Assembly: GCF_000968535.2 (NCBI RefSeq)
Contig: NC_016112.1
Location: 4,464,001 to 4,528,000, forward strand
DNA: 64,000 bases
Direction: 5' to 3'
DNA from: Methylotuvimicrobium alcaliphilum 20Z
Lineage (GTDB): Bacteria; Pseudomonadota; Gammaproteobacteria; Methylococcales; Methylomonadaceae
The notes beneath the pieces were generated by a model. It had not been told where the DNA came from and made no database searches. It worked only from the letters and a program-made list of their open reading frames with translations. The position numbers and the translations under genes are program-made. Numbering within the stretch: the stretch's first letter is position 1; each line of letters begins with the position of its first letter. This document shows, piece by piece, positions 3,372 through 35,051 of the stretch.

Positions 3372-6023
3372 TTATCTCGGCCGACCATTCTCCGGATCGA
3401 AAGTGGTCCCAGTGTCGTCCTCTTGTATTTTAATAAAGCGCTCTCTCAATCGTGAAAATGCATTCCATAGCGTGGTGTCCATGACGACTTCATTACCGAT
3501 CGATACGATCACCCTGGCCAATTCCGGTATTCGAGTTTTAGTCGCTATAAGATAGAGCGGCTGGACATAAAGAATCGAGTGTTCCATCGGCAAAATAATC
3601 ATTCGCCCCATTTCCACCCGGGAACCGCGCTGGTCCCAGAGCGAAAGCTGGGCCGAAATATCCGGGTCTTGCTCCATCAAGGCCTCGATCTGTGCCGGTC
3701 CGTTGACTTGGACTTCCTTCGCAAATTGGTAAACCGTGATACTTTTTTTGAAGGCATCGCCGCATTTTTCTCTATCCATTACACTGGCAACGCCGACCAT
3801 GCTCAAGTTCTGATTGTTGATCGGCGTCATCGGATTGATCATGACGAATTCTTCCTTGCCGCCGCAATGCCCTAAGTCTACCGTTTGGTAATAAGGCTTG
3901 ACCTCTTTGCCTCTCACTTCTGCAAAATTCCAAGTCTCGGCCTGTTGATAAAACAATGCCGGGTCACGCTGATGATATTTGGCATAGACTTTCATCTGCA
4001 AATAGAACAGATCGCGCGGAAAACGCAATTGTCGCTTTAATTCGGTCGGCATTTCGTCGATATCGCGGAATACCCCGGGATAAGCACGATCGTAAGCTTG
4101 AATGATCACATCCGACGGATCGGAAACATAAAAACGAGTGAAACCGCTGTAAGCATCGACGGTGATCTTGACCGAATTGCGGATATAGTTGAATTCCTTG
4201 CTGCCGTCTAAAAAATCATCCTCGGCCGATTTCGATACCGGATACCAATTCGACAAGGTATAGGCGTCTTGCACCCAATAGAAGCGGTTTTTCGTGACGA
4301 CTAAATAAGGATCCTTGTCTAAATGTAGAAAAGGCGCCAGATGACTGATCCGTTCGACGACATTACGACGAATCAACAGCCGGCTCTCTCGAGATATATT
4401 GGTCGAGAAAAATATTTTTTCGTCTTTGAAAAAAAATGAAAACAATGCCTTTCTGAACAGCGAAGGGATGGGTATTCCGCCGCTGCCAGTATAAACCGCA
4501 TCGATCACGGGATCCGGCCGAGTTCCCGAAAGCGCAACCACGTCGAGATTATTCGGTGTGATTGCGTATTTATAATCCTCCATTCCGTAATAAATATCGG
4601 GGTGTTTGACTTCTAATCCGACTGTGGAACTTAAATCCAAGTCCCGCAAAAACCAACGGATCGGATTACCCGCATCTTGCGCCGCAGGCGTCACCACCGC
4701 GCCGTAACCATGCGTAAAACGCAAATGCGTGTTTTCCCAGTTTTGTGCCTCTTCGGGGAGCTTGGAGATATTCATTTCCCGAGCGGCAAGATTGACCTGA
4801 CGTTTGAAACCGTCGATCAAATAACGGCCTTCGTCGACATCGAGAAAATGATAATACGGCCGGATACTTTGAATCTGGTTGTAAACATCGCTCAAAAATT
4901 CACGATCCCAAACCGGAATATTTTCGAAACGTCTTCGGGTACTCCAGGCTTCGATATCTTTGGTCGGATCAAGCGTCACCGTAAAATCGACGATATCGAT
5001 ATTTTTTAAATCATAAGCATCGAGCGTCGCGACAATATTATGATCGATAAAAGGGCGCTGCGTCCTAACCGGATTAGGCTTGACGATAAATTTATCGATC
5101 AATTGCGGTATAAACTTGACTTCTTGCAAGCCCAACGCACTGACAAAGACTCCCAATGAAATCAAAAACGGGACTTTGGTCCGCGTCGTTTCGGAGAAAT
5201 AATAAAACAGCAATGAAATCGCAGCAGCCAGAAACCCCAGAATCGAGAGCCAAATCAACGGTAGTTGATAGCGTATTTCGACGAAGCCGGGCCCTGAAAA
5301 CACCGGCTCGTGTCGGTCGACATAAAGCAGCGAAAACCGGTACAGCATGAAACCCCAAACGACGAAGAGCACGACAAAACCGAACAACACCGCCAGATGA
5401 ATTTTAGCGGCCTTCGGAAACTCTTTTGATTGACTTGGGATAAACGTATGCTGTACCCAATATTGAAAGGCGACCATTATAAAAATAATGATCGCTGTAG
5501 CCAGTAGCTCTTCTTGGATGAGTAAATAAATCGGGTAAGACAGTAAATAAAAACCGATATCTTGTCCGTAAACGGGCTCAACGATTCCGGATGATCCGCC
5601 GAAGAAATACAACAGCCCCGTTTCCCATTGATGATAAAAGGGAATTGCAATCGCAATGGCTAAAATCAATGCGACCGGCGTAGAAAATTTGAGCGACAAG
5701 CTCATGAATAAGTCGGCTAGGCGCTCGAAGCGCTTGCGCTTGGCCGAGTCCAGCAATACATCCTGATTGGGATTGAACCCCAGATAACGGGCCGCCAACC
5801 AAAAATGCAAAAAGAAAATCGAAAAGAAAACCGCTGTGACCGCGCCCGAAAGAAAAAAGCGGTAAAGCAATCTCAGCCAAAAATAGCCTTCAAACCTTAA
5901 TGCTTGAAACCACCAATAATCGACGATCAGATCGAGAAATACGAAATAGAATGCGACATAAACGACAAGCAATATGCCGAGGGTTGCCGCAATAATCTTG
6001 GTTAAATGTCTCGGAATCCGCAT
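3372..6023 (-). CDS. UPF0182 (COG1615) large integral membrane protein
   Basis: The 883-residue protein has the UPF0182 layout. About seven hydrophobic segments lie in the first ~320 residues (e.g. residues 12-34, 55-75, 115-135, 165-190, 205-230, 258-285). A long soluble region follows, with family blocks such as RPFIDHNI, TRRRFENIPVWD, FTHGYGAVVTPA and HSILYVQPLYL. The length is normal for the family. The function is not established; the topology suggests a membrane-anchored protein with a large extracytoplasmic domain. GAGGA 5 nt before the ATG at 6023 supports the start. The gene is monocistronic and convergent with rsd. Confidence 0.85.
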   Translation of the reverse strand: MRIPRHLTKIIAATLGILLVVYVAFYFVFLDLIVDYWWFQALRFEGYFWLRLLYRFFLSGAVTAVFFSIFFLHFWLAARYLGFNPNQDVLLDSAKRKRFERLADLFMSLSLKFSTPVALILAIAIAIPFYHQWETGLLYFFGGSSGIVEPVYGQDIGFYLLSYPIYLLIQEELLATAIIIFIMVAFQYWVQHTFIPSQSKEFPKAAKIHLAVLFGFVVLFVVWGFMLYRFSLLYVDRHEPVFSGPGFVEIRYQLPLIWLSILGFLAAAISLLFYYFSETTRTKVPFLISLGVFVSALGLQEVKFIPQLIDKFIVKPNPVRTQRPFIDHNIVATLDAYDLKNIDIVDFTVTLDPTKDIEAWSTRRRFENIPVWDREFLSDVYNQIQSIRPYYHFLDVDEGRYLIDGFKRQVNLAAREMNISKLPEEAQNWENTHLRFTHGYGAVVTPAAQDAGNPIRWFLRDLDLSSTVGLEVKHPDIYYGMEDYKYAITPNNLDVVALSGTRPDPVIDAVYTGSGGIPIPSLFRKALFSFFFKDEKIFFSTNISRESRLLIRRNVVERISHLAPFLHLDKDPYLVVTKNRFYWVQDAYTLSNWYPVSKSAEDDFLDGSKEFNYIRNSVKITVDAYSGFTRFYVSDPSDVIIQAYDRAYPGVFRDIDEMPTELKRQLRFPRDLFYLQMKVYAKYHQRDPALFYQQAETWNFAEVRGKEVKPYYQTVDLGHCGGKEEFVMINPMTPINNQNLSMVGVASVMDREKCGDAFKKSITVYQFAKEVQVNGPAQIEALMEQDPDISAQLSLWDQRGSRVEMGRMIILPMEHSILYVQPLYLIATKTRIPELARVIVSIGNEVVMDTTLWNAFSRLRERFIKIQEDDTGTTFDPENGRPR

Positions 6024-6081
6024 AGCTTCCTCATTAAATCTATGGATTTACGCATTGTACTTGTCGAAATGCCCGTATTCT

Positions 6082-6119
6082 AACATTCATCACCGAATTT
6101 GCCTCGTTATCGCGTCAAG
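6082..6119 (+). repeat. 38-bp direct repeat, left copy
   Basis: A 38-bp stretch containing CATCACCGAATTTG and CCTCGTTATCGCGTCAAG recurs at 9183-9220 with two mismatches. The two copies flank the multiheme cytochrome gene and its leader. Confidence 0.75.
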
Positions 6120-6287
6120 GCTATAGGTATCTATACATCATTTGTATACCCATCTCACTACAAATTTCGGCAATTGTGTATAAAGAAGCCGAGGGTGTTA
6201 GGTGAGGAATCATAAATCATGGATGATTTCCTAGCATCTGAATTATCCAAGTAATCAATCATAACCAATAGGCTATGGATTTTTTTG

Positions 6288-6449
6288 TGCTAGCCCTTTG
6301 AGGGGCGTTACGGCGCCGAAAGCGGGTTAGCAATAGGTATAGTGGACATAAATTCAATGAGTGAAAGGTTTTGAATTACGGCATATGACGCACTAGATGC
6401 GTGAAAGCACGCATGTTGAGTTATCCCAATGACTGACGCGGGAGTCATT
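6288..6449 (+). other. Run of four hairpins upstream of the cytochrome gene
   Basis: Four successive inverted repeats are visible: TGCTAGCCC (6288-6296) with GGGTTAGCA (6324-6332, one G-U pair); AATTCAA (6351-6357) with TTGAATT (6371-6377); ATGCGTG with CACGCAT (6397-6414); AATGACT (6428-6434) with AGTCATT (6443-6449). The second and third loops both contain GTGAAAG. This could be a structured RNA leader about 95-250 nt before the start codon, or the remnant of a folded mobile element. I do not recognise it as a known riboswitch. The rest of 6024-6543 shows nothing else. Confidence 0.45.
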
Positions 6450-6543
6450 ACCTACAAGAAATCATTGTATTATCAAACAAATAGTAATTTGGCATATTAA
6501 TTGACACATATTTATTCCGGTTATTTTATTTTTAAGGTAAACA

Positions 6544-8820
6544 ATGAAAAGTCGTAAACTTATTTTTATAGGCCTTTGTTGGCTGTTTATGTTGTTGTAT
6601 GGTTTTGGAGCCGTGGCGCAGTCCAAAGGTGGCGGTGGAGGCGGTAAAGACAGTACACCGGATGCGTTTGAGTTTGTCGATCAAACCGGTGTTGCGTTAA
6701 ATACCGCGATTACTTCCGACCCGATCACGATTACCGGCATCGATACCGGCTCCTCTATCGGCATCAGCGGTGGCAGCTATTCGCGCAACGGCGGCAGTTT
6801 CACCAGCAAGAAAGGAACTGCATACAATGGCGACAATATTCGCGTTCGGCTGACTTCGGCTAATACCTACGATACGACTAAAAGTACTACGCTCACAGTA
6901 GGCGGTGTGTCGGGAACATTCACGGTAATAACCTTGAGCGACACCTTGAATACCACGCCGGATGCTTTCGGCTTCACCGCACAAAGCGATGTCGAGCCGG
7001 GCAGTACCGTCACTTCCAATGCAATTACCGTTACTGGCATCAACGCCCCGACACCGATTAGCATTAGCGGCGGTTTGTATTCAGTCAACAACGGTACCTT
7101 CGTAGCAACGGCGGGTGAAGCCCATGTTAACGACAGCGTTCGTGTGCGGTTGTTGGCGTCCACTGAGCACGACGTTACGACCAGCGCGACACTAACGATC
7201 GGCGGCGTATCGGCCAGTTTCAATGTCACGACTAAACTCAACAGCAACGGCGCGTTTTTATTGCCGCCCGCTTCGCCAGGTAATCCCTCTTTTGAATCTG
7301 AACATTTTTCCGGTTCCAACAACTGCACGATGTGCCATAACAACCTGACTGATGAAAATGGTCGGGATGCTTCGATTGAAACGGATTGGTCTTCGACGAT
7401 GATGGCGAATTCGGCTCGAGATCCTCTGTGGAAAGCCAAAGTGCGTTCCGAATTGAACCGCAACCCTCACTTGGCTGATGTCATCAACGACAAATGCACG
7501 CGCTGCCATGCGCCGATGGCGAATTTCGAAGCGCGAAAAAAAGGCGAACCGCTGGAGATTCTCGATAACGGTTTTCTGAATGCCGACCATCCACGTCACA
7601 ACGAAGCGTTGAATGGCGTAAGCTGTACGGTCTGTCATCAAATCAAAAATTCACCGGATTTAGGTACCTTATCGAAATTCAGTGGCCAATATGATATTGA
7701 CGGCAGCAAGACGATCTATGGTCCCTACGATGATCTATTCCCAAATCCAATGATCATGAATACCGGATATACACCGGTGTATAGCGAACACGTCAAATCC
7801 TCGAAGCTGTGTGGGACTTGCCACAATTTAAAAACACCTTTTGTCGACGAGTCGGGAACTATTCTCAGCACGACACCGGAAAGTGAGTTCCCGGAACAAA
7901 TGCCGTATAGCGAATGGGAGCACAGCGATTTTGCCAGCACTACGCCAAGAAGCTGTCAGCAATGTCACATGTCACGCGTCAATGGCGTGCCTATTTCCAA
8001 TCGTCCGATGTGGTTGCAAAAACGAGACGATTTCGCCTTGCACGAGTTTGTCGGTGCCAATAAGTTAATGTTGGATATTTTCAACAATAACAAAGAGCAA
8101 TTGGGTATTTTGTCGAATAATTTCGAGGAAACCCTCCAAAAAACCCAAGATCAGTTAAATAAATCAGCGACGATTGAAACGGTTACGCAATCTTTAGCGA
8201 ATAATACGCTGGATTTCACGCTGAAAATCAATGCTCAAACCGGTCATAAACTACCGAGTGCGTATCCCTCGCGTCGTGTCGTACTACATGTGACGGTCAA
8301 AGATGCACAGGGCAAAGTAGTGTTCGAATCGGGCAAAATCAATCCTAACGGCAGCATCGAAGGCGTGGATGCCGATATGGATCGCACGACCTTTGAGCCG
8401 CATTACGATTTGATTACCAGCCCGGATCAAGTTCAGGTTTACGAGGCGATCATGGGCGACAGCACAGGCCAAGTGACCTATACCTTGCTGCGTGGCGCAC
8501 AGTATCTGAAAGACAACCGCTTACTACCTAAAGGCTTCAACAAAGCGACCGCGCCGAATGACATCAAAGTCGTGGGCGATGCGTTGACCGATGCCAACTT
8601 TGTCGGCGGCAGCGATCAAATCCGCTATCAAATCGGCGGCTTAAGCGGAAGCAGTTACAGCGTGGAAGCCGAGCTAGTGCATCAACCATTGGCCTATTCC
8701 TTCGCGCAAGATCTGTTCGTCGAACCCGATGCGGAAGTGCAGGATTTCAAGACGATGTTCAATGCATCGACTCAGAAAACCAGCCGTATCGTGCTACATA
8801 CTTTTAACGTCTCTCCATAA
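6544..8820 (+). CDS. Exported pentaheme c-type cytochrome with two Ig-like repeats
   Basis: The 758-residue protein has a signal peptide (residues 1-25, cut near AVAQS) and a glycine-rich linker. Two repeats of about 93 residues follow (about 38-131 and 138-231, each starting TPDAF and ending GGVS-F-V-T), which look like Ig/beta-sandwich modules. Five CxxCH haem sites follow at 261, 318, 361, 423 and 471. The C-terminal ~270 residues contain a TGHKLPSAYPSRR segment. It is probably periplasmic or surface-exposed and may act in electron transfer; copper-responsive surface multiheme cytochromes are known in Methylococcus. AAGGT lies 6-7 nt before the ATG. No maturation or partner genes adjoin it. 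Confidence 0.8.
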   Translation: MKSRKLIFIGLCWLFMLLYGFGAVAQSKGGGGGGKDSTPDAFEFVDQTGVALNTAITSDPITITGIDTGSSIGISGGSYSRNGGSFTSKKGTAYNGDNIRVRLTSANTYDTTKSTTLTVGGVSGTFTVITLSDTLNTTPDAFGFTAQSDVEPGSTVTSNAITVTGINAPTPISISGGLYSVNNGTFVATAGEAHVNDSVRVRLLASTEHDVTTSATLTIGGVSASFNVTTKLNSNGAFLLPPASPGNPSFESEHFSGSNNCTMCHNNLTDENGRDASIETDWSSTMMANSARDPLWKAKVRSELNRNPHLADVINDKCTRCHAPMANFEARKKGEPLEILDNGFLNADHPRHNEALNGVSCTVCHQIKNSPDLGTLSKFSGQYDIDGSKTIYGPYDDLFPNPMIMNTGYTPVYSEHVKSSKLCGTCHNLKTPFVDESGTILSTTPESEFPEQMPYSEWEHSDFASTTPRSCQQCHMSRVNGVPISNRPMWLQKRDDFALHEFVGANKLMLDIFNNNKEQLGILSNNFEETLQKTQDQLNKSATIETVTQSLANNTLDFTLKINAQTGHKLPSAYPSRRVVLHVTVKDAQGKVVFESGKINPNGSIEGVDADMDRTTFEPHYDLITSPDQVQVYEAIMGDSTGQVTYTLLRGAQYLKDNRLLPKGFNKATAPNDIKVVGDALTDANFVGGSDQIRYQIGGLSGSSYSVEAELVHQPLAYSFAQDLFVEPDAEVQDFKTMFNASTQKTSRIVLHTFNVSP

Positions 8821-27045: not shown

Positions 27046-28056
27046 CTAATCGCTTAATTCACTCAAAAAAGCATCCCATAGCATATCCCCGATTATGGCC
27101 TGACCTTTTAAATTTGGATGAACACAATCAGCGGCCAAATATTCTTTCCAGTCTTGATTCATTTGAGGCAAATTCTCTGTGAGTGCGATTTTGCCTTGAA
27201 AGACTGAGTAGGGTAGTTGCCGACCTCGTATTTGCTCGACTTCATCTGAAAGCAGCTGATTCATTTCAGCGGCGGTTTGCTGTAAACGGAACATTTCCTC
27301 CGGATCGGTGTACACCGATTTAAACAAACCATAAGCGCGTTCTTGAATATCTCGGCAAGTCGTTGTCGGAAAGCCTATAAAAGCCGGAATACTGACGGTA
27401 TCGGTCAATGCCGAGATCGGGGATGGGTCTTGCAGCGGCGTCACGATAATTTGGCTATGCGGATAACGCCGGATCAATAGGTTGAAAAAATCTTTGACAT
27501 TGCTTTTAAAGCTATCAGGGGTATCGCCTGAAACAACATCGATGATATTGAAGTTCACCAAAATGTAATCTGGCCTTCTACCTGCCAACCTATTTCTTAG
27601 TCGACGCAATTGATGTCGGCCGAATTTATAGGAACCGGCCAGAAAGCCAACATTCAAGACTCTGACCGGTTTATTAGTGTGTTGTCTTAAACGGGAGGCA
27701 AACGAATAACTTTGATTACCCGCTGTAGCGGAAAGCTGATTGTTTGCCGTGAATCTAAATTTTCGTTCCATCAAACGACTATAAGCCATCAAATTATTTT
27801 CTGGTTGTTGAATCAAAGCCAGCTGGGCAGGTCTTAACTTTTCTAGGCGCCGTATGGCCTTATTGGCACTTAAATAAAAATCCAGTCCCGGGTTACCCAA
27901 GGTTGAATTGGCCCAGACGCCTTGTGTGACACTGTCACCCAGAACGGCCACGATGATCCTCTTGCCGGATGCCGCCGAGCTGGACATTGAAAACAGCAAT
28001 AGCCATAAGGCGATTAAAATTTTGTATGTCTTGAATTTTGTTTTCAGCATGATCAT
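27046..28056 (-). CDS. Exported SGNH/GDSL-type hydrolase
   Basis: The 336-residue protein has a signal peptide (about residues 12-30, AASGKR after the cut). The catalytic Ser42 is in AVLGDSVTQG, block III Asn in LVNFNIIDVV, and the Asp-x-x-His pair in ADCVHPNLKGQA near residue 315. It is probably a periplasmic esterase or acyl hydrolase acting on lipid or polysaccharide esters. ATG codons at 28056 and 28050 are both possible. Repeats lie immediately upstream. Confidence 0.85.
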   Translation of the reverse strand: MIMLKTKFKTYKILIALWLLLFSMSSSAASGKRIIVAVLGDSVTQGVWANSTLGNPGLDFYLSANKAIRRLEKLRPAQLALIQQPENNLMAYSRLMERKFRFTANNQLSATAGNQSYSFASRLRQHTNKPVRVLNVGFLAGSYKFGRHQLRRLRNRLAGRRPDYILVNFNIIDVVSGDTPDSFKSNVKDFFNLLIRRYPHSQIIVTPLQDPSPISALTDTVSIPAFIGFPTTTCRDIQERAYGLFKSVYTDPEEMFRLQQTAAEMNQLLSDEVEQIRGRQLPYSVFQGKIALTENLPQMNQDWKEYLAADCVHPNLKGQAIIGDMLWDAFLSELSD

Positions 28057-28071
28057 CCGATTGGCAAGATT

Positions 28072-28149
28072 TATAGCTTTCGAACTTCAAATTTCGGCAG
28101 TGCCTAAGGAGGCGTCGGGGCGCTCGGTTCCTCACCTAACGCTAGGCGA
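28072..28149 (-). repeat. Truncated R1 repeat
   Basis: The CGAACTTCAAATTTCGGCAG and GGAGGCG blocks match an R1 end. The copy breaks off next to the 134-bp element. Confidence 0.6.
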
Positions 28150-28283
28150 CACTGCCATTAAGTTAAGCCGTTCGTGGTGAGCCTGTCGAACCATGGACGG
28201 CTTAACTTATCGACCCAGGATTTTTCCATTCACCCTTCGACAGGCTCAGGGCGAACGGAAAAATCCTTAACTTAATGGCAGTG
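28150..28283. mobile_element. 134-bp palindromic MITE with target duplication (M134)
   Basis: The ends CACTGCCATTAAGTTAAG and CTTAACTTAATGGCAGTG are inverted repeats, and the inner arms (GTGAGCCTGTCGAACC and CCTTCGACAGGCTCAGG) also pair. AACGCTAGGCGA occurs on both sides, a 12-bp direct repeat that looks like a target duplication. A second copy at 52033-52165 differs by three or so bases. There is no coding capacity, so mobilisation would be in trans. The inner TTCGACAGGCTCAGG motif is widespread in bacterial REP-like repeats. Confidence 0.8.
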
Positions 28284-28340
28284 AACGCTAGGCGAGGAAA
28301 CAGAAAACGGGGTCAGGCCTTAGGAGCAGCCCTGTATTCC

Positions 28341-30356
28341 CTAGTATTGCGATGCGCTGGCTTGTATGGGGTCGGCAGGCAGGCGGTCGGCGCCCCAGCT
28401 CTGGTAAATATGATCTTTGACTCTGTTGAGCTCCTCGGCACTCACCTGGGCTAACTCGCCCCTTTCCAAAGGGTCGTAATGGAAAATGTATAGCCGGGAA
28501 GCGAATTGTTCGAAAGGCAGTGACGCCTCGCCAAAACGTTCGCCATTGCCCGAGGTGTCAACCTCTACTCCATTGCCCCAATTCTGGCCGCTGTCATTAT
28601 TGGGATTGTAGAAATAGACACGCATTTCCTCTTTAGGATCCAGCGCTACTCGCAGGATGGTGATGGCGTGCCAGCCCACAAATCGCCCCGCGCTGTCGGT
28701 AACGGCAATACCGGCGGGTTGAGGGTGGATCAGCGGTTGATTGCCGTTGTAATAGGGGTGGTAGCTGGCGTAAAAGTGGCGCAGAAAATCTTCCAGTTGA
28801 TCCAGCTTTCCGGTTTTCACATCCACATTGATGCGAAAGCCCCGGCCCGACCACCAGCCATGAAACTCTGGGTTAACCCAGCGGTGTGGATCGCCTTCCC
28901 GTTCACTGCAGCGCCGTCCCATTTCCGCATATATGCGATCCAGGTGCGGTACCACCAGAAGTGAAACCGGGTCCAGATCCAAGGGAAGTTCCTTGGCAAC
29001 CCCGGAAACACTTTCCCGCGAGGAAATCGGCTGCCCCTCAAAGTGAATAATGATTTCGTCGTCCCGGGCGGCCCAGACCACCATTTGCAGCATATAATCC
29101 GGGTCGTTGTAGGCCCACATGGAGAGGGCTCGAGCCGATTGGCAGGTGGGGTTATTGCCTTGTCCGACCCCCATGGGTAGGCCCAACATACAGAGTACGC
29201 CCTGCATCAACCAGGCTCGAGCCATGGGTTCGGGGCCAAAGGCCTGTACCAGACGCTGTTCACAGTAAGGTGAAATGGGTAATGACAGTTGGCGCCATAG
29301 TGCCGGTGCCACAGGAGGTTGATACAAAACCCCCCGCTCCAGAAGCAATGCCAGGCCGTAAATAGCTTGGGCAGTTTGAGGATACACAGTTTCATTGATC
29401 ATAGCGCGCACCAGATCACCATAACAGAGCAGGCAATCGCGGCCAGTACTGGACAATCCTAGGGCCTCGGAAAGGAGGTGGTCGCCATGCTCCTGCAGGT
29501 AACGCAACAGTACGGCGTGATAAGGCGAAACCAGACCGGTATCGTGCATGGCCCGGGCAAAACCGGTGGCCTCGTACTGAAGAGCGCTGGAATCCATACT
29601 ACTCAAGCGCTGACGGTAAACCTCGACGCCGGGATCCTCTCGGCATGCCTGGGTGGCGCCATAAAGGCTGCTGATCAACCGATCCGCGCCCTGACCGCTG
29701 ATTCCGAGGTCGATATCCGGGTTGGCCTGACAGACGGCGATCTGGGTAATCATCTGCTTAACGCTGTCCACCTGTATGGGCCGCTGTTGCAGAATGCGCC
29801 AAATTTCCTCAATCAATCTATCGATCACATGCTCGTAACCGATGCGCTCAGCCAGATGTCGGAACAAATTTCGGGGCAGCCGTGACAACTTACCCTGCTG
29901 CTCCCGCTCCGCCTCACTGGGACTACCAAATAACAAGCCCAGGTTGATAGCCAAGACCTGAGTCAGATAGTGATGCGCCTGCTCCAAGGACATGCAGGGG
30001 TGAAGGTAGTCACCCATGGCAATAGCGAGCAAGCGAAGCTCACTCAGTGCCTCTACCACCACCGTATCGGCATTGCTACTTTTGAGCGAGTGGCAGGTCA
30101 AGCTAGGAATCAGAAGCTGGGGCTCGTCCCAATCCGAGCCTAAAAACACCCCGGCTTCCTCAATCTGCCGAGCACGGGCCTCAACTCTGGCACACCCACC
30201 CTCCAGCAGCATCAGTAGTCGCGCCGTGTCGAAAACCCGGCGAATGCGAGTGATTTTTGCAAAGTCACTGACTTCGGCCAGGGCTTGTAGTGCCTTGTCT
30301 AGTTTTTCCGACAAGCTGTCTAGCCTGGCAATATCGAGTGTGTCAGAATCAGTCAA
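28341..30356 (-). CDS. Uncharacterised papain-like (thiol hydrolase fold) protein paired with an ATP-grasp ligase
   Basis: The 671-residue protein has no signal peptide. Residues 1-380 are largely helical with no motif I recognise. The C-terminal part has a plausible papain-like catalytic set: Gln399 (GVGQGNN), Cys405 (PTCQSAR), His563 (GWHAITI) and Asn584 (YNPNND), in the order and spacing of C39/transglutaminase-type folds. Translation starts at TTG (30356) behind a strong AAGGAGG. It follows the ATP-grasp gene by 28 nt. Base and codon use (many CTG, GCC, GGG) differ from the neighbours, and repeats border the pair, so transfer is likely. The function is unknown; hydrolase, amidase or transpeptidase are all possible. 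Confidence 0.6.
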   Translation of the reverse strand: MTDSDTLDIARLDSLSEKLDKALQALAEVSDFAKITRIRRVFDTARLLMLLEGGCARVEARARQIEEAGVFLGSDWDEPQLLIPSLTCHSLKSSNADTVVVEALSELRLLAIAMGDYLHPCMSLEQAHHYLTQVLAINLGLLFGSPSEAEREQQGKLSRLPRNLFRHLAERIGYEHVIDRLIEEIWRILQQRPIQVDSVKQMITQIAVCQANPDIDLGISGQGADRLISSLYGATQACREDPGVEVYRQRLSSMDSSALQYEATGFARAMHDTGLVSPYHAVLLRYLQEHGDHLLSEALGLSSTGRDCLLCYGDLVRAMINETVYPQTAQAIYGLALLLERGVLYQPPVAPALWRQLSLPISPYCEQRLVQAFGPEPMARAWLMQGVLCMLGLPMGVGQGNNPTCQSARALSMWAYNDPDYMLQMVVWAARDDEIIIHFEGQPISSRESVSGVAKELPLDLDPVSLLVVPHLDRIYAEMGRRCSEREGDPHRWVNPEFHGWWSGRGFRINVDVKTGKLDQLEDFLRHFYASYHPYYNGNQPLIHPQPAGIAVTDSAGRFVGWHAITILRVALDPKEEMRVYFYNPNNDSGQNWGNGVEVDTSGNGERFGEASLPFEQFASRLYIFHYDPLERGELAQVSAEELNRVKDHIYQSWGADRLPADPIQASASQY

Positions 30357-30384
30357 GCTGCCTCCTTATAATCGTAGCGGCAGA

Positions 30385-31626
30385 TTATACATAAAAATCG
30401 AGGTCTTCCTGATGCTTCAATAAGTCTCTCATAACGTGAGGATCGTGACCGAAAAAGTAAACCAGTCCCCAGTGAGTGCCAAAGGCGGTGCGTTTGGTCA
30501 CGGTTTCTTCCAGAGGTGGTGTCAATTCGTGAGACTCGAAATACTCGTGCTCTTCGGTCTCCTCGGGGATCTCCAGTTTACTAACCACGCGACGCCGTGG
30601 ATAGACCCCAAAACAGCCGGCAACACCTTTGGCATCGACTACTTCTTTGGGGAAAAATGCAGTGATTTCTTCTTCGGTGGTTTTCGGGTCGAAGGACAAG
30701 ATCAGACCCTGATAGGCATTGAAGCCATAGGCTCGTTCAAGCAGCTCGAATACCTTGAATCCGGGTGGTCGATAGGCCACCTCACCGAAGTACATTTCGC
30801 CATCGTTGGTTACAAAGTACTCAGGATGGACAAAGCCGAAATCGATATCGAATGCCTTGATCAGTTTTTCAATTTGGGTGGTAATCTGGGCCCGGTATTT
30901 TTCTAGTTCAGGGGTGGCGGGAACAAACACCGAATAACCCAGGGTCACGTACTCGGAAATATTCAAAAAGTGAATTTTGCCGTTATGAATCCAGGCTTCT
31001 ACTGCGAATTCCCAGCCGTCCAAGTGGGATTCCATGAGCACGGGGAATTCTTCATCGGGAATGGTATCCACCTCGTCGGGCGTGCGAATCACTCTGTGCC
31101 CCAAACATCCGGCCTTGTCGAAGGCTTTGAGATGAATGGGGTCGTTGGGGTCACCATCCAGTTTGAGCAGCGTTTGGTTCACGCGTTTGAGAAAACGCAC
31201 CACGTCCTCTCTATCGTGTGCCTCCTCGAAAATACCCACGCGGATACCGCCGAGTTGAGCACGCCGTTTCATTAGCGCCTTGTCGCGCAATAACATGGCT
31301 TGGCCGAAAAGGCGAGGGTTATCCAGCAGTACCGAATTGATCGCGCCGGCCCATTCCACCGTTTCTTCGAACAGCGGAATTGAAACATCCACCCCCATGT
31401 CTTTCAAGGTTTGCGCAATTTCCATGGAGCGATCGTTAAGCCGCTCAAAGTTCCAGGGAATATAGGGAATATCGTGTTCTTTGCAGTAATTCTCGGCCCA
31501 ATCGGGAGCCACCACCACATAGCGTCGGTCAAAACGATCAGCGGCTTCAATGGCGTTAATGCTCCAGCCAAGAAGAGCTACATAACCTTTTTCGGGATTA
31601 AAGTTTTCTTTTCGATTCGTACTCAT
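30385..31626 (-). CDS. ATP-grasp superfamily ligase
   Basis: The 413-residue protein has a pre-ATP-grasp N-terminal domain (GYVALLGWSINAIEAADRF) and an ATP-grasp fold. HLKAFDKAGCLGH is near residue 170, VLMESHLDGWEFAVEAW near 205, and a metal-binding GEVAYRPPG near 310 stands where family members have an E-x-N-x-R motif. It resembles carboxylate-amine ligases of the carbamoyl-phosphate synthase/PurK type that form amide bonds on peptides or small molecules. ATG at 31626 follows AGAGG by 9 nt; the frame extends 79 codons upstream through repeat sequence and is not used. It is the first gene of the pair with the papain-like protein. Confidence 0.75.
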   Translation of the reverse strand: MSTNRKENFNPEKGYVALLGWSINAIEAADRFDRRYVVVAPDWAENYCKEHDIPYIPWNFERLNDRSMEIAQTLKDMGVDVSIPLFEETVEWAGAINSVLLDNPRLFGQAMLLRDKALMKRRAQLGGIRVGIFEEAHDREDVVRFLKRVNQTLLKLDGDPNDPIHLKAFDKAGCLGHRVIRTPDEVDTIPDEEFPVLMESHLDGWEFAVEAWIHNGKIHFLNISEYVTLGYSVFVPATPELEKYRAQITTQIEKLIKAFDIDFGFVHPEYFVTNDGEMYFGEVAYRPPGFKVFELLERAYGFNAYQGLILSFDPKTTEEEITAFFPKEVVDAKGVAGCFGVYPRRRVVSKLEIPEETEEHEYFESHELTPPLEETVTKRTAFGTHWGLVYFFGHDPHVMRDLLKHQEDLDFYV

Positions 31627-31702
31627 AAATGATTGCCTCTGCATCCATTGGCATTTATACACTACTCTTTTTTTTCCACTTTGGCCAATTGGTCCCCTAT
31701 GG

Positions 31703-31781
31703 CTGCAATTCCCAATTTGAGGATAATAAGGGTGCGCGGTGTGCTTGGCGAGTATGTCGGCAGCAGGGCAGATTTTTGCCC
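31703..31781 (-). repeat. R2 repeat fragment
   Basis: Sequence from GCAATTCCCAATTTGAGGAT to GGCAGCAGGGCAG matches an end of R2 (compare 360-440 reversed). It marks the right border of the ATP-grasp island. Confidence 0.6.
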
Positions 31782-31917
31782 CATGCAAAATCTGCATTAA
31801 CGCATCTTGTTGCATTGGTCGACCGTACTCGGGTACTGCGTTGCACCTTTCCCCAAGGGCCATTGATCGTCGCTCGCCTCTATTAATCCGGCGACTCTTT
31901 GCAATCAGAAAAAACGT

Positions 31918-33225
31918 TTAATTTCTTTTTCCCCCGACCCGGCGCGCTTTCGGAAAAACCACCGATATAGCCGTGCCTTCGCCGGGTTTACTGCGAATTT
32001 TGAGTTTCCAGCCGAAACGATTGCAGAGCCGCTTGACTATCGTCAAACCTAAGCCGTGGCCGTTTTGACCGTCTTGAGCGCGATAAAAGGGTTCGAAAAC
32101 CTGTTTGAGTTGTTTTTGCTCCATGCCGATGCCGGTATCCGCGATCGTGACGCGATTTTCGTCGATCGTAATGCAAACCGTGCCTGCCTGGGTATAGCTA
32201 AATGCGTTGCGCAGTAAATTGGTCAGTAAGATACTCAAGACTTTTTCAGCGGCCGGCACCGACAACAAACAATTTTGTTCGATTTCGACACTGATTTTAT
32301 CGTTGGTGACCGCCCGGCCGACTTGCTCGATTAGATTGCTGAGCAGATCATTGATCAGCACGTCGTCTTCGGGCAGCGGTGAAGATTCCTCGCGGGCCAA
32401 TAATAACAGCGTATCGATCAGGCCTTCCATGTCGCGTAGCGTACTTTCAATCGTTAGCAACGATCGTTGTTCGTTCGGTTGGTAATCCGAGCGCTTATGC
32501 AGCAAGGCCAACGAGCTTTTGATGACGGCCAGCGGCGTTCTGAGCTCGTGGCTGGCGTCGCGGGTGAAATTTCGTTCGCGTTCGATGAACAATTCCAAGC
32601 GCTCGGTAAAGTGGTCTAAAGCATCGACCAGCTTGGCGACATCGCTGTCGGTGGTTTGCCGTAACTCGCTCAAATCCAGTTCCGCGAGTCCTTGTTTTTT
32701 GAAATCGAAACTTTCGACGATATGCGCGAGTGAGATCACCGGCGAGATCGCGTCCCTCGATTGGCGATAAGACATCCAGGCGAACACGTAAATCAGAACC
32801 AACACTAAGCTCAGCGGCACGACACCGAAATAAAACGACAAGGCTGCGACTTGCTGTTCATCGAAGACTAAATACAGTCGCGAATCGTCATTATCCTCGA
32901 TATACACGATCGGCTGCCGTCCCTCTATTAAAGCACGACCGAAGCCGGGCTGCAGCGGTCGTAATGCTCCTGGAACCTTAGAAAAATCGCCGTTGGAAGC
33001 CAGATAACCGCTCATATTGAGCGTATCGGGCGCGGGAAAATTTCGATTTTGCCGGTAGCGTTCCCAAAAATGACCGGCTTCGCCTTGTAAGGCTTCGCGG
33101 ACCAGAACATCTTCGACGATTTTAGCGGCGGCAAATACACCCATCAGTGTCGCAATACTGATCATCAGAATCTGCAGTAAAAAAGCCTTAATCAGTTTAT
33201 ATTGCAGACCTTGCTTGCTCATCAT
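31918..33225 (-). CDS. Sensor histidine kinase
   Basis: The 435-residue kinase has two membrane segments (about 14-36 and 130-152) around a periplasmic sensor of about 95 residues. The phospho-acceptor His226 is in DASHELRTPL; the N box is LLRNAFSYT, and G boxes are IADTGIGM and GHGLGLTIV. It is the last gene of the lipid operon: its ATG overlaps the stop of the DUF1295::methyltransferase fusion by 4 nt, so it is translationally coupled. No response regulator is adjacent. The OmpR-type regulator at 47709-48437 is the only one in the window and might be its partner, but that is a guess. Confidence 0.9.
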   Translation of the reverse strand: MMSKQGLQYKLIKAFLLQILMISIATLMGVFAAAKIVEDVLVREALQGEAGHFWERYRQNRNFPAPDTLNMSGYLASNGDFSKVPGALRPLQPGFGRALIEGRQPIVYIEDNDDSRLYLVFDEQQVAALSFYFGVVPLSLVLVLIYVFAWMSYRQSRDAISPVISLAHIVESFDFKKQGLAELDLSELRQTTDSDVAKLVDALDHFTERLELFIERERNFTRDASHELRTPLAVIKSSLALLHKRSDYQPNEQRSLLTIESTLRDMEGLIDTLLLLAREESSPLPEDDVLINDLLSNLIEQVGRAVTNDKISVEIEQNCLLSVPAAEKVLSILLTNLLRNAFSYTQAGTVCITIDENRVTIADTGIGMEQKQLKQVFEPFYRAQDGQNGHGLGLTIVKRLCNRFGWKLKIRSKPGEGTAISVVFPKARRVGGKRN

Positions 33226-35051
33226 TCACTCGGCCTGATAAAGCGATAGTGCGTAACCAACCATTCGTTCCCGCCCCGATAGCCGAACAGTTCGGCACAA
33301 GCCATAAAAAACAACCGCCAACGCTGCCGCCAAACGGCCGCTTGTTCATGCCCGTAGGTTTCCGCAAAAATCCGATCGATTTCGGACGGGTATCGGTCCA
33401 TGTTGCTCAACCAAGCTTCGGACGTTTTTTGATAATGCTGGCCGGAAACGTCCCATTGGCATTCTATCCTGAGCCGGTCTTGAAAATGCAGTAGCGTGTC
33501 ACGAGCCGGCATCAATCCGCCGGTGAAAAAATAGCGTCCCATCCAATTATCGTCGCCTTCGGTTTCGAACGGATAGGCCAAATAACGGTGACAAAAAATA
33601 TGCACGAACAACTTGCCGCCGGGTTTCAACCAGCTGGCGATATTGCTCATCAGATGTCCGTAATTGCGCATATGTTCGAACATCTCCACCGAAACGACGC
33701 GATCGTACCGTTCAGTCAATGACAAGCGATTCACGTCGCAGGTGATTACATCGAGATTGCGTAAGCCTCTTAGCTCCGCCTGTTCGAGGATATATTCGCG
33801 TTGACTATTCGAGTTCGATACTGCCGTAATTGTACTGCCGGGATAATGTTCGGCCATCCATAATGTCAACGAACCCCATCCGCACCCCAGCTCGAGTATT
33901 TGCTGGCCGCCCGCCAATTCCGCTCGTTCGCAGGTCAGCTTTAGCATGCGTGTTTCGGCTTCATCGAGCGTTCGAGTCGTTTCGTCCCAATAGCAAGAAG
34001 AATACTTCAGATGCTTGCCGAGTGCATGGCGATAAAAAGCCGCAGGGACTTCGTAATGTTGGCGGTTTGCCGCATCGGTTTCTATCGCGATAGGGCTTTC
34101 TCTCAGCGTTTGTAATAACGACAGATAACGCAAGCTTTGCTTTTCGACATCATTGGCGCATTCGTCTTTAAGACGTTGCCTCAACAAATTTCGGATACCG
34201 ATTCGCATCAATGAATCAGGAATTAAACCACGCTCAGCCAGTTCGATCGCATTCAACATAGAAAATCGATTTTGCAAAGGAGAAGTCGATTTTGGATGCC
34301 ATGGCAAAAATTTGCTGGTGGTTTGTTGATAGCGCCGGTAATCATCGCCGCGAGAACGCAAGGCTTGTTGTTCGGTATAAGGAATACCGGTCAGAAAATA
34401 CAAAAAGCAAAACATCACGACCGGTGCGAGCCATAGCCAGTATTGATATTCGCCGCCCCAACCCATCAACGGGTAAGCGAACCAGTGCAGCCATTCGAAA
34501 AAATAATTCGGATGCCGGGAATAACGCCACCAACCGGTTCGGCACGTCAGTCCGCGATTATCGGGATTTTTCCGAAATTCGGCCAATTGCCGGTCTGCCG
34601 TGGTTTCGCCCCATAAGGCCACACATGCCACCAGTAAAGCGAAAAACACCATAAGCGGATTGGGATCGCGGGTATGCGCGACCGCCCAAAACGGGAGGGA
34701 CAACACCCAGATAAAACCGGCTTGCAATAAAAAAAACTGCAAAAACCCGCTATCGGCCTTATTCTGCATTGCTGCCCGCATTGCTTGGTAACGGCCGTCT
34801 TCCGGCTCTCCGAACACCCGTGCAGACAAATGACTTCCCAATCGTAAAAACCAGGCGAACGTCAGTAAGGCCAGACTGAGCTGTAAATATAGAGGGGCGG
34901 TTCCCGTCAACGCATACCAAGGCCCCGCCAACATCATTCCGAATGACCAAATCACATCAACGATACCGGCATTTTTGTGGTTTTGCTGCCACACCCAAGC
35001 CATTAACATCGCCACGGTACTTAGTACCGCGATTACGATTAAACTAAACAT
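33222..35051 (-). CDS. Fusion of DUF1295 membrane reductase-like domain with cyclopropane-synthase-like methyltransferase
   Basis: The 609-residue protein combines two families. Residues 1-255 are a DUF1295/steroid 5-alpha-reductase-like membrane domain with about six hydrophobic helices and the signature RYSRHPNYFFEW (177-188). Residues 270-609 are a SAM methyltransferase of the CFA-synthase superfamily, with ILELGCGWG at 385-393, VSVEMFEHM near 440 and FVHIFCHRYLAYPF. These domains are usually separate neighbouring genes in this operon type. The start overlaps the DUF2878 gene by 8 nt. The reaction is unknown; modification of an unsaturated or cyclopropane acyl chain is the natural guess. 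Confidence 0.85.
   Translation of the reverse strand: MFSLIVIAVLSTVAMLMAWVWQQNHKNAGIVDVIWSFGMMLAGPWYALTGTAPLYLQLSLALLTFAWFLRLGSHLSARVFGEPEDGRYQAMRAAMQNKADSGFLQFFLLQAGFIWVLSLPFWAVAHTRDPNPLMVFFALLVACVALWGETTADRQLAEFRKNPDNRGLTCRTGWWRYSRHPNYFFEWLHWFAYPLMGWGGEYQYWLWLAPVVMFCFLYFLTGIPYTEQQALRSRGDDYRRYQQTTSKFLPWHPKSTSPLQNRFSMLNAIELAERGLIPDSLMRIGIRNLLRQRLKDECANDVEKQSLRYLSLLQTLRESPIAIETDAANRQHYEVPAAFYRHALGKHLKYSSCYWDETTRTLDEAETRMLKLTCERAELAGGQQILELGCGWGSLTLWMAEHYPGSTITAVSNSNSQREYILEQAELRGLRNLDVITCDVNRLSLTERYDRVVSVEMFEHMRNYGHLMSNIASWLKPGGKLFVHIFCHRYLAYPFETEGDDNWMGRYFFTGGLMPARDTLLHFQDRLRIECQWDVSGQHYQKTSEAWLSNMDRYPSEIDRIFAETYGHEQAAVWRQRWRLFFMACAELFGYRGGNEWLVTHYRFIRPSE

Follow-up and report, generated by a model that had tools for sequence, protein, structure and literature searches.

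Glutathionylspermidine synthetase/amidase (GspSA) joins a CHAP papain-like amidase to an ATP-grasp synthetase; BtrJ and BtrH carry out consecutive steps in butirosin synthesis; and the gamma-glutamyl-polyamine pathway includes a glutamine-synthetase-like protein, PuuA, and a class I amidotransferase, PuuD. These are the described systems closest to a pair of adjacent genes in Methylotuvimicrobium alcaliphilum 20Z, a haloalkaliphilic methanotroph, which encode a 413-amino-acid ATP-grasp ligase (here called GRASP) and a 671-amino-acid papain-like protein (here called PAP). The pair lies in a stretch of 64,000 nucleotides (nt), positions 4,464,001 to 4,528,000 of contig NC_016112.1, which is referred to as a whole as the window; the coordinates of features are those of the window. 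An earlier reading of the same DNA (the original prediction) presented the two genes as a laterally acquired, repeat-bordered island. The pair is a real, widely conserved unit. In the reading favored here, with a probability of roughly 0.5, it would carry out a cytoplasmic cycle in which a ligase using ATP to form amides and a thiol enzyme, either an amidase or an acyltransferase, act on the same small amide, the amine of which would most likely be a polyamine or diamine.

Both genes are on the minus strand, GRASP first (30385–31626, with an ATG start codon) and PAP second (28341–30356, with a TTG start codon), separated by a gap of 28 nt (30357–30384). The gap contains a Shine-Dalgarno sequence for PAP, AAGGAGG (30361–30367, minus strand), with the TTG 4 nt past it; both open reading frames are located as originally claimed, co-directional and with this start arrangement. 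No signal peptide was seen by eye in either GRASP or PAP, which speaks against a secreted peptidase.

A scan of genome contigs with PAP found at least 587 stretches with a relative of it, of which the top 80 were retained. In 76 of these 80, GRASP is directly upstream of PAP and on the same strand; this tblastn count is the clean one, as one of the neighborhood maps described below mislabels some short frames as GRASP or TlyA, and has large clusters that seem to consist largely of antisense reading frames of GRASP and PAP. The other four loci (L019, L066, L086, and L088) have no GRASP adjoining PAP within the available stretch. Two genome samples were searched as well, with two to five first-look candidates scored per genome, and with strict cut-offs for GRASP because other ATP-grasp proteins exist. 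In the class sample (321 genomes), PAP is found in 10 (E up to 1e-3) and GRASP in the same 10 (E up to 1e-100); in the phylum sample (398 genomes), PAP is found in 11 and GRASP in the same 11 (E up to 1e-60), one of which (G391) belongs to another class. All accepted GRASP matches are at 1e-240 or better. Combining the samples, which overlap, gives 20 genomes with both genes and none with just one. A minority of loci have the two genes divergent or separate (by ~55 kb in G346). The co-occurrence in many genomes that the original prediction expected is thus present, and the outcome it named as evidence against itself, homologues lying apart in most genomes, was not seen.

This distribution does not fit a rare island system. 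Elsewhere, in the loci seen, GRASP and PAP mostly form a plain two-gene unit; a repeat-bordered island is a trait of the window's genus. Close to the window genome the pair is sparse: PAP occurs in 3 of 61 genomes of its kin, and in 2 of 6 within the genus, the window genome included, where it has one place only and no second copy. In the genus taken to be Marinobacter, PAP is present in 78 of 90 genomes, many of them multi-copy. The PAP paralogues of the presumed Marinobacter genomes (L261–L298) fall into several subfamilies, some of them accompanied by a divergent GRASP. As for the 80 loci, their named carriers presumably all belong to marine, saline, soda-lake or halophilic groups; this tentative link with salt comes from the names of the loci and the habitats we associate with them, and may reflect ancestry.

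Several kinds of mobile or specialized element were considered as homes for the pair and rejected. For a defense system, no PADLOC family was found for GRASP or PAP at E up to 1. For a phage gene, PAP has no PHROG hit and GRASP has one at E 0.26; 50,697 phage records yielded no PAP, and 40 pattern matches to it in viral contigs include no confirmed relative (GRASP was not searched for in either collection). For plasmid-borne cargo, one record of 72,556 contains either protein, and this is a 1.8 Mb Halomonas replicon.

The GRASP protein matches the Pfam family ATP-grasp_4 at 27.6 bits, passing the gathering score of 27, in agreement with the ATP-grasp core first noted by eye. Its closest PDB sequences are L-amino acid ligases, 3vot (E 3.5e-4) and 4wd3 (E 1.4e-3), with weaker matches by profile. 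Three residues aligned to 3vot (Glu269, Glu282, and Arg286) are invariant in both alignments of the family (23/23 and 35/35 rows); conserved acidic and basic residues of this kind in ATP-grasp cores bind metal and phosphate, and ligases of the L-amino acid ligase class use free amino acids. Relatives of GRASP are 78–95% identical to the window protein in the alignment made of them. There are three other ATP-grasp_4 places in the same genome, L003 and L004 being under the family cut-off. The third, L001, was considered as a paralogue of GRASP and found to be a different gene; by eye, this ATP-grasp_4 gene (C2, 3134444–3137860) lies between WbqC-like and methyltransferase genes.

PAP is harder to place. 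Searches of Pfam, NCBIfam, PADLOC and PHROGs returned no family at E up to 1, and the PDB no sequence at E up to 10, whether PAP was used as a single sequence or as a profile. Twenty-four homologues scanned singly gave scattered matches only, to two NCBIfam and six Pfam families, each in one or two of the 24 members; the best E was 0.022, and the six Pfam families include no peptidase family by name.

The C-terminal residues that suggested a papain-like enzyme in the original prediction are strongly conserved. In an alignment of 106 rows (frames of at least 600 amino acids, mostly Halomonadaceae, including the window protein and near copies but reaching down to 41% identity with it), Gln399, Gly400, Cys405, His563, Asn584, and Gln591 are identical in every row. 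Gln399, Cys405, His563, and Asn584 are also invariant in a smaller alignment (24/24 rows), in which the L009 protein was kept although it differs from the others at its C-terminal end, perhaps by a frameshift, so that loss of Cys405 or His563, the other outcome named in advance as counting against the prediction, was not seen. Gln399 (codon at 29160–29162, like the following on the minus strand) would be at the papain oxyanion-hole position, and Cys405 (29142–29144) is the putative nucleophile; a spacing of six residues from Gln to Cys is that of papain. His563 (28668–28670) is the putative base, and aligns with the His of the C1 family. Asn584 (28605–28607) is a candidate third residue, with Asn587, kept in 102 of 106 rows, as the alternative.

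Comparison of PAP residues 380–640 with purpose-built profiles, using hhalign, gave a probability of 53.6% for Peptidase_C1 (E 1.3e-4 for one comparison); with full-length PAP this is 44.9%, and 15 column-shuffled controls reached at most 1.0%. The same segment gave 0.3% with HDAC and 4.8% with GRASP. Membership in two other papain-like groups was considered and rejected: C39 peptidases (C39_2 profile, 25 rows, 0.10%) and the BtrH acyltransferases (no Pfam BtrH_N hit, and 0.05% with a BtrH_N profile of just 4 rows). In the C1 alignment, His563 is opposite the C1 His, and PAP residues 587–594 are opposite the C1 N-x-x-G-x-x-W-G stretch; this match makes a remote relationship of PAP to the C1 papains probable. 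The papain Asn falls opposite Asn587, not Asn584, so that both are candidates for the third catalytic residue. Two features argue against the papain assignment. The C1 match, to a profile of 9 rows, is limited to the His/Asn half of the domain, where PAP residues 545–620 by themselves give 62.9%, and the Gln-Cys part alone gives only 0.3%. The papain-like label of the original prediction is partly supported, by the invariant residue set and by a modest C1 match over one half of the domain.

Since the two genes occur in the same genomes and mostly in a fixed order, GRASP and PAP are taken to belong to one pathway; and the combination of an ATP-grasp ligase with a cysteine enzyme having a papain-type residue set suggests the making of an amide and its breaking or transfer. 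Beyond this we infer the amide chemistry itself, the common substrate and the direction of the reactions. The proposal is a two-enzyme cytoplasmic amide pathway, mainly of halophilic and marine Gammaproteobacteria. At the expense of ATP, GRASP would activate a carboxylate (that of an amino acid, most likely) and then couple it to an amine. Cys405 of PAP, aided by Gln399, His563, and an Asn, would attack the resulting or a related amide, and PAP would then free the amine or hand the acyl group on. The amide would be made and broken, or made and transferred, in a cycle that would functionally resemble that of GspSA. The amine is most likely to be a polyamine or diamine, although, taken by itself, this identification is a leading but weak guess.

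The hints toward a polyamine come from neighboring genes. Two neighborhood maps, of 106 and 53 regions, were made; each type of neighbor is found in few of them, and no universal third gene was found beside the pair in the mapped regions.

Six loci (L012, L013, L121, L127, L136, and L290) have a gene of one HDAC-like subfamily (PF00850) directly beside PAP. The best PDB match to this gene is HDAC6, with bacterial HDAH and the polyamine deacetylase HDAC10 lower; a second, different HDAC-type gene lies a few kb off in six Halomonadaceae loci. The subfamily was surveyed in 50 chosen genomes, 22 that carry the pair and 28 that do not, the latter not balanced for kinship. Matches of at least 65% identity occur in 14 of the 22 carriers, one of these being the query's own genome, and three further carriers (G318, G217, and G327) have nearly full-length matches of 47–50%; the best match among the 28 non-carriers is 47%, over residues 48–335. 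This association with the pair may be due in part to ancestry. The HDAC-like gene in turn adjoins a GNAT gene in four loci (L181, L182, L177, and L290). For the GNAT of L181 and L182, searched with the L182 protein, the best PDB matches are spermine/spermidine acetyltransferases (E about 8e-12). The GNATs of L177 and L290 are of another type, with RimI below cut-off.

Of the 19 loci examined in one Marinobacter subfamily, 5 have genes similar to potF, potG, and potI ahead of a PAP paralogue; these genes end 3 nt short of it in L134 and L264, and ~1.1 kb short of it in L261–L263. The L134 genes, the only ones compared with NCBIfam, score highest with the equivalog models for PotF, PotG, and PotI. 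A polyamine transporter was considered as a general partner of the pair and rejected: a PotI-like gene accompanies PAP in just these 5 of the 19 loci, all of one subfamily, and abuts it in two. Finally, L-piperidine-6-carboxylate dehydrogenase adjoins GRASP in L126 (749.5 bits, with a cut-off of 730). The Pot-like genes, the HDAC-like gene, the L182 GNAT and this dehydrogenase are all hints at a polyamine.

There are several arguments against giving these neighbors much weight. In 5 of the 22 carriers, including the window genome, the best HDAC-like match is only 39–43% identical, so that the subfamily is missing there. The best NCBIfam match of the L182 GNAT is RimI, below cut-off, and L182 shares its genus with L181. 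The polyamine-type neighbors are rare and lineage-bound, the four PotI-like genes compared being 90–92% identical to the fifth; in L134 the PotF, PotG, and PotI models are all below their cut-offs, and only a polyamine ATPase subfamily model passed. The remaining neighbors point in other directions, or to nothing more than synteny. In L122, PAP has a BCCT transporter gene next to it (a BCCT subfamily model passed; BetT scored 675.1 bits, with a cut-off of 695), a member of the BCCT cluster is near PAP in L089, and a gene that looks BCCT-like by eye is 2.6 kb from a copy of GRASP in L171. Some of the presumed Marinobacter paralogues have a fatty-acid desaturase within 1.6 kb of PAP (five loci) or a sorbosone-dehydrogenase-type protein near it (four loci); and an MFS transporter is nearby in five loci, being a fragment in one case and lying beside GRASP in another. 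A TlyA-like methyltransferase gene, recognized by eye, is frequent after the pair in Halomonadaceae and seldom found elsewhere, and was rejected as a third partner in favor of local synteny. A fuller proposal is that halophilic Gammaproteobacteria have an undescribed cycle for conjugating polyamines or diamines, in which GRASP would make an amino acid-polyamine amide, a new family of papain-like amidases would open it, and a dedicated HDAC-like deacetylase and polyamine acetyltransferases would tune the cycle in some lineages; as a whole this is unlikely.

Other products and other roles for PAP can be fitted to much of the same evidence. PAP might be an acyl- or aminoacyl-transferase that finishes a product begun by GRASP, in the manner of BtrJ and BtrH, rather than a hydrolase. 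The strict co-occurrence of the two proteins fits consecutive steps, and acyltransferases with papain-like folds are known, BtrH among them (PMC10318531); the BtrH_N profile, shallow as it is, nevertheless finds no match in PAP, and no carrier-protein gene was noticed beside the pair, though no search was aimed at one. This is possible, if rather doubtful. Somewhat less probable still is that the amide is not a polyamine conjugate but a compatible solute or other osmoadaptation metabolite, for example a dipeptide, which the pair would make or recycle and PAP would degrade on osmotic downshift. The presumed marine, saline and soda-lake affinities of the named carriers agree with this, as do the BCCT genes of L122, L089, and L171, and the free amino acids on which we take ligases of the GRASP class to act. 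BCCT genes, however, are presumably common in halophiles, so that their proximity to the pair says little, and no recurrent solute-synthesis gene was seen beside it in the neighborhood maps.

A protein substrate seems improbable. Here the product of GRASP would be a protein tagged with an amino acid or amine, on a side chain or at a terminus, and PAP would strip the tag off again. A ligase working with a papain-like deconjugase is, we believe, a recurrent logic. Deconjugases are among the papain-like enzymes in a 2023 classification (PMC10318531). Proteins can also be substrates of enzymes such as the HDAC-like and RimI-like GNAT neighbors that some lineages have. On the other side, the closest PDB relatives of GRASP are amino acid ligases, and the neighborhood maps show no co-conserved candidate for a substrate protein beside the pair. 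An amide cycle on a small molecule is the reading retained.

In the window's genus the pair appears to be a horizontal acquisition, a conclusion well supported, at the level of sequence comparison, by codon use, flanking repeats, trees, and one congener in which the site is empty; this part of the original prediction holds up on all four counts. Among the 35 window reading frames of at least 200 amino acids, GRASP and PAP rank second and third in codon-use distance from the others, bearing out the observation that their codon use is unlike that of their neighbors, although GC content at third codon positions is unremarkable (0.56 and 0.62, vs. a window mean of 0.56 with standard deviation 0.05). 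Two families of dispersed repeats, neither assigned a strand, flank the pair on both sides, as had been noted. One or more copies lie 3′ of PAP (28066–28302), including a partly palindromic element at ~28150–28284; more than 30 rows among the matches listed for this stretch are in the congener G004. The second, a copy or fragment found by sequence comparison, is 5′ of GRASP (31699–31803).

Of the other members of the genus, G005 has its site likewise occupied by the pair, with 95% identity. In G002 the flanks (window 26843 and 31742) are 530 bases apart and the pair is missing. In G004 there are other frames between window positions 28073 and 31929, suggesting a variable insertion spot; these different genes (L313, ~3789–7025 of the reverse complement) have frames of 397 and 535 amino acids. 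The flanks lie separately in G003, and in the draft G001 one flank is among the matches listed. In trees of both proteins the window pair groups with L013, a metagenome-derived gammaproteobacterium, and with Marinimicrobium, away from G058, a genome of its own order. Support for the five-row node is 98/92 with PAP and 91/86, under the star threshold, with GRASP; the long branch of row L023 in the GRASP tree comes from a wrong open frame, and should be disregarded.

Two other features were seen near the pair. A GDSL-like hydrolase gene beside it (27046–28056) ranks fifth of the 35 frames by codon-use distance. G004, which lacks the pair, retains the region of this gene, and G005, which has the pair, lacks that region at this site. 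Farther on, a 609-amino-acid protein (33222–35051) has a DUF1295 domain fused to a cyclopropane-fatty-acid-synthase-type (CMAS) domain, within a run that also includes DUF2878, a second CMAS protein, DUF1365, and an amine oxidoreductase.

What the comparisons establish is a two-gene unit with at least 587 related stretches and conserved putative active sites, never split in the two genome samples, one partner of which, PAP, is without a family entry in the catalogues searched. No published description of the pair was recognized among the listings and abstract openings returned by full-text literature searches. The 2023 classification of papain-like families describes 21 newly found ones, and the PAP family is not mentioned in the parts of its main text consulted (PMC10318531). 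If the proposed ligase/amidase cycle is correct, a new metabolite would be expected, of relevance to salt-adapted bacteria including the genera used for ectoine production.

Set beside known proteins, GRASP shares its Glu, Glu and Arg core positions with the L-amino acid ligases (BL00235, PDB 3vot; 4wd3); the similarity is weak, and GRASP forms a tight family of its own that accompanies PAP. With C1 papains (Peptidase_C1, PF00112) PAP shares the order Gln-x5-Cys, His, Asn and the N-x-x-G-x-x-W-G stretch, but it has no Pfam hit, a profile match over half the domain, and no signal peptide that could be seen. BtrJ and BtrH are likewise an ATP-grasp ligase and a papain-like enzyme, PAP differing from BtrH in having no BtrH_N profile match. 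The PuuA/PuuD pathway resembles the proposed one in having a ligase and an amidase act on a polyamine conjugate, while neither of these families is found on GRASP or PAP by Pfam.

The closest parallel is with GspSA, which likewise combines an ATP-grasp amide ligase with a papain-like cysteine amidase, and with which there is a possible polyamine link. The differences are that GRASP and PAP are encoded by separate genes, that PAP has ~380 extra N-terminal residues, and that no GspSA domains were found in the pair (in Pfam at E up to 1, ATP-grasp_4 alone on GRASP and nothing on PAP). The GspSA amidase is itself noted in the classification of papain-like families cited above (PMC10318531). The logic of a ligase with a thiol amidase is thus a known one, while this particular pair, and its papain-like family, appear undescribed within the searches made.

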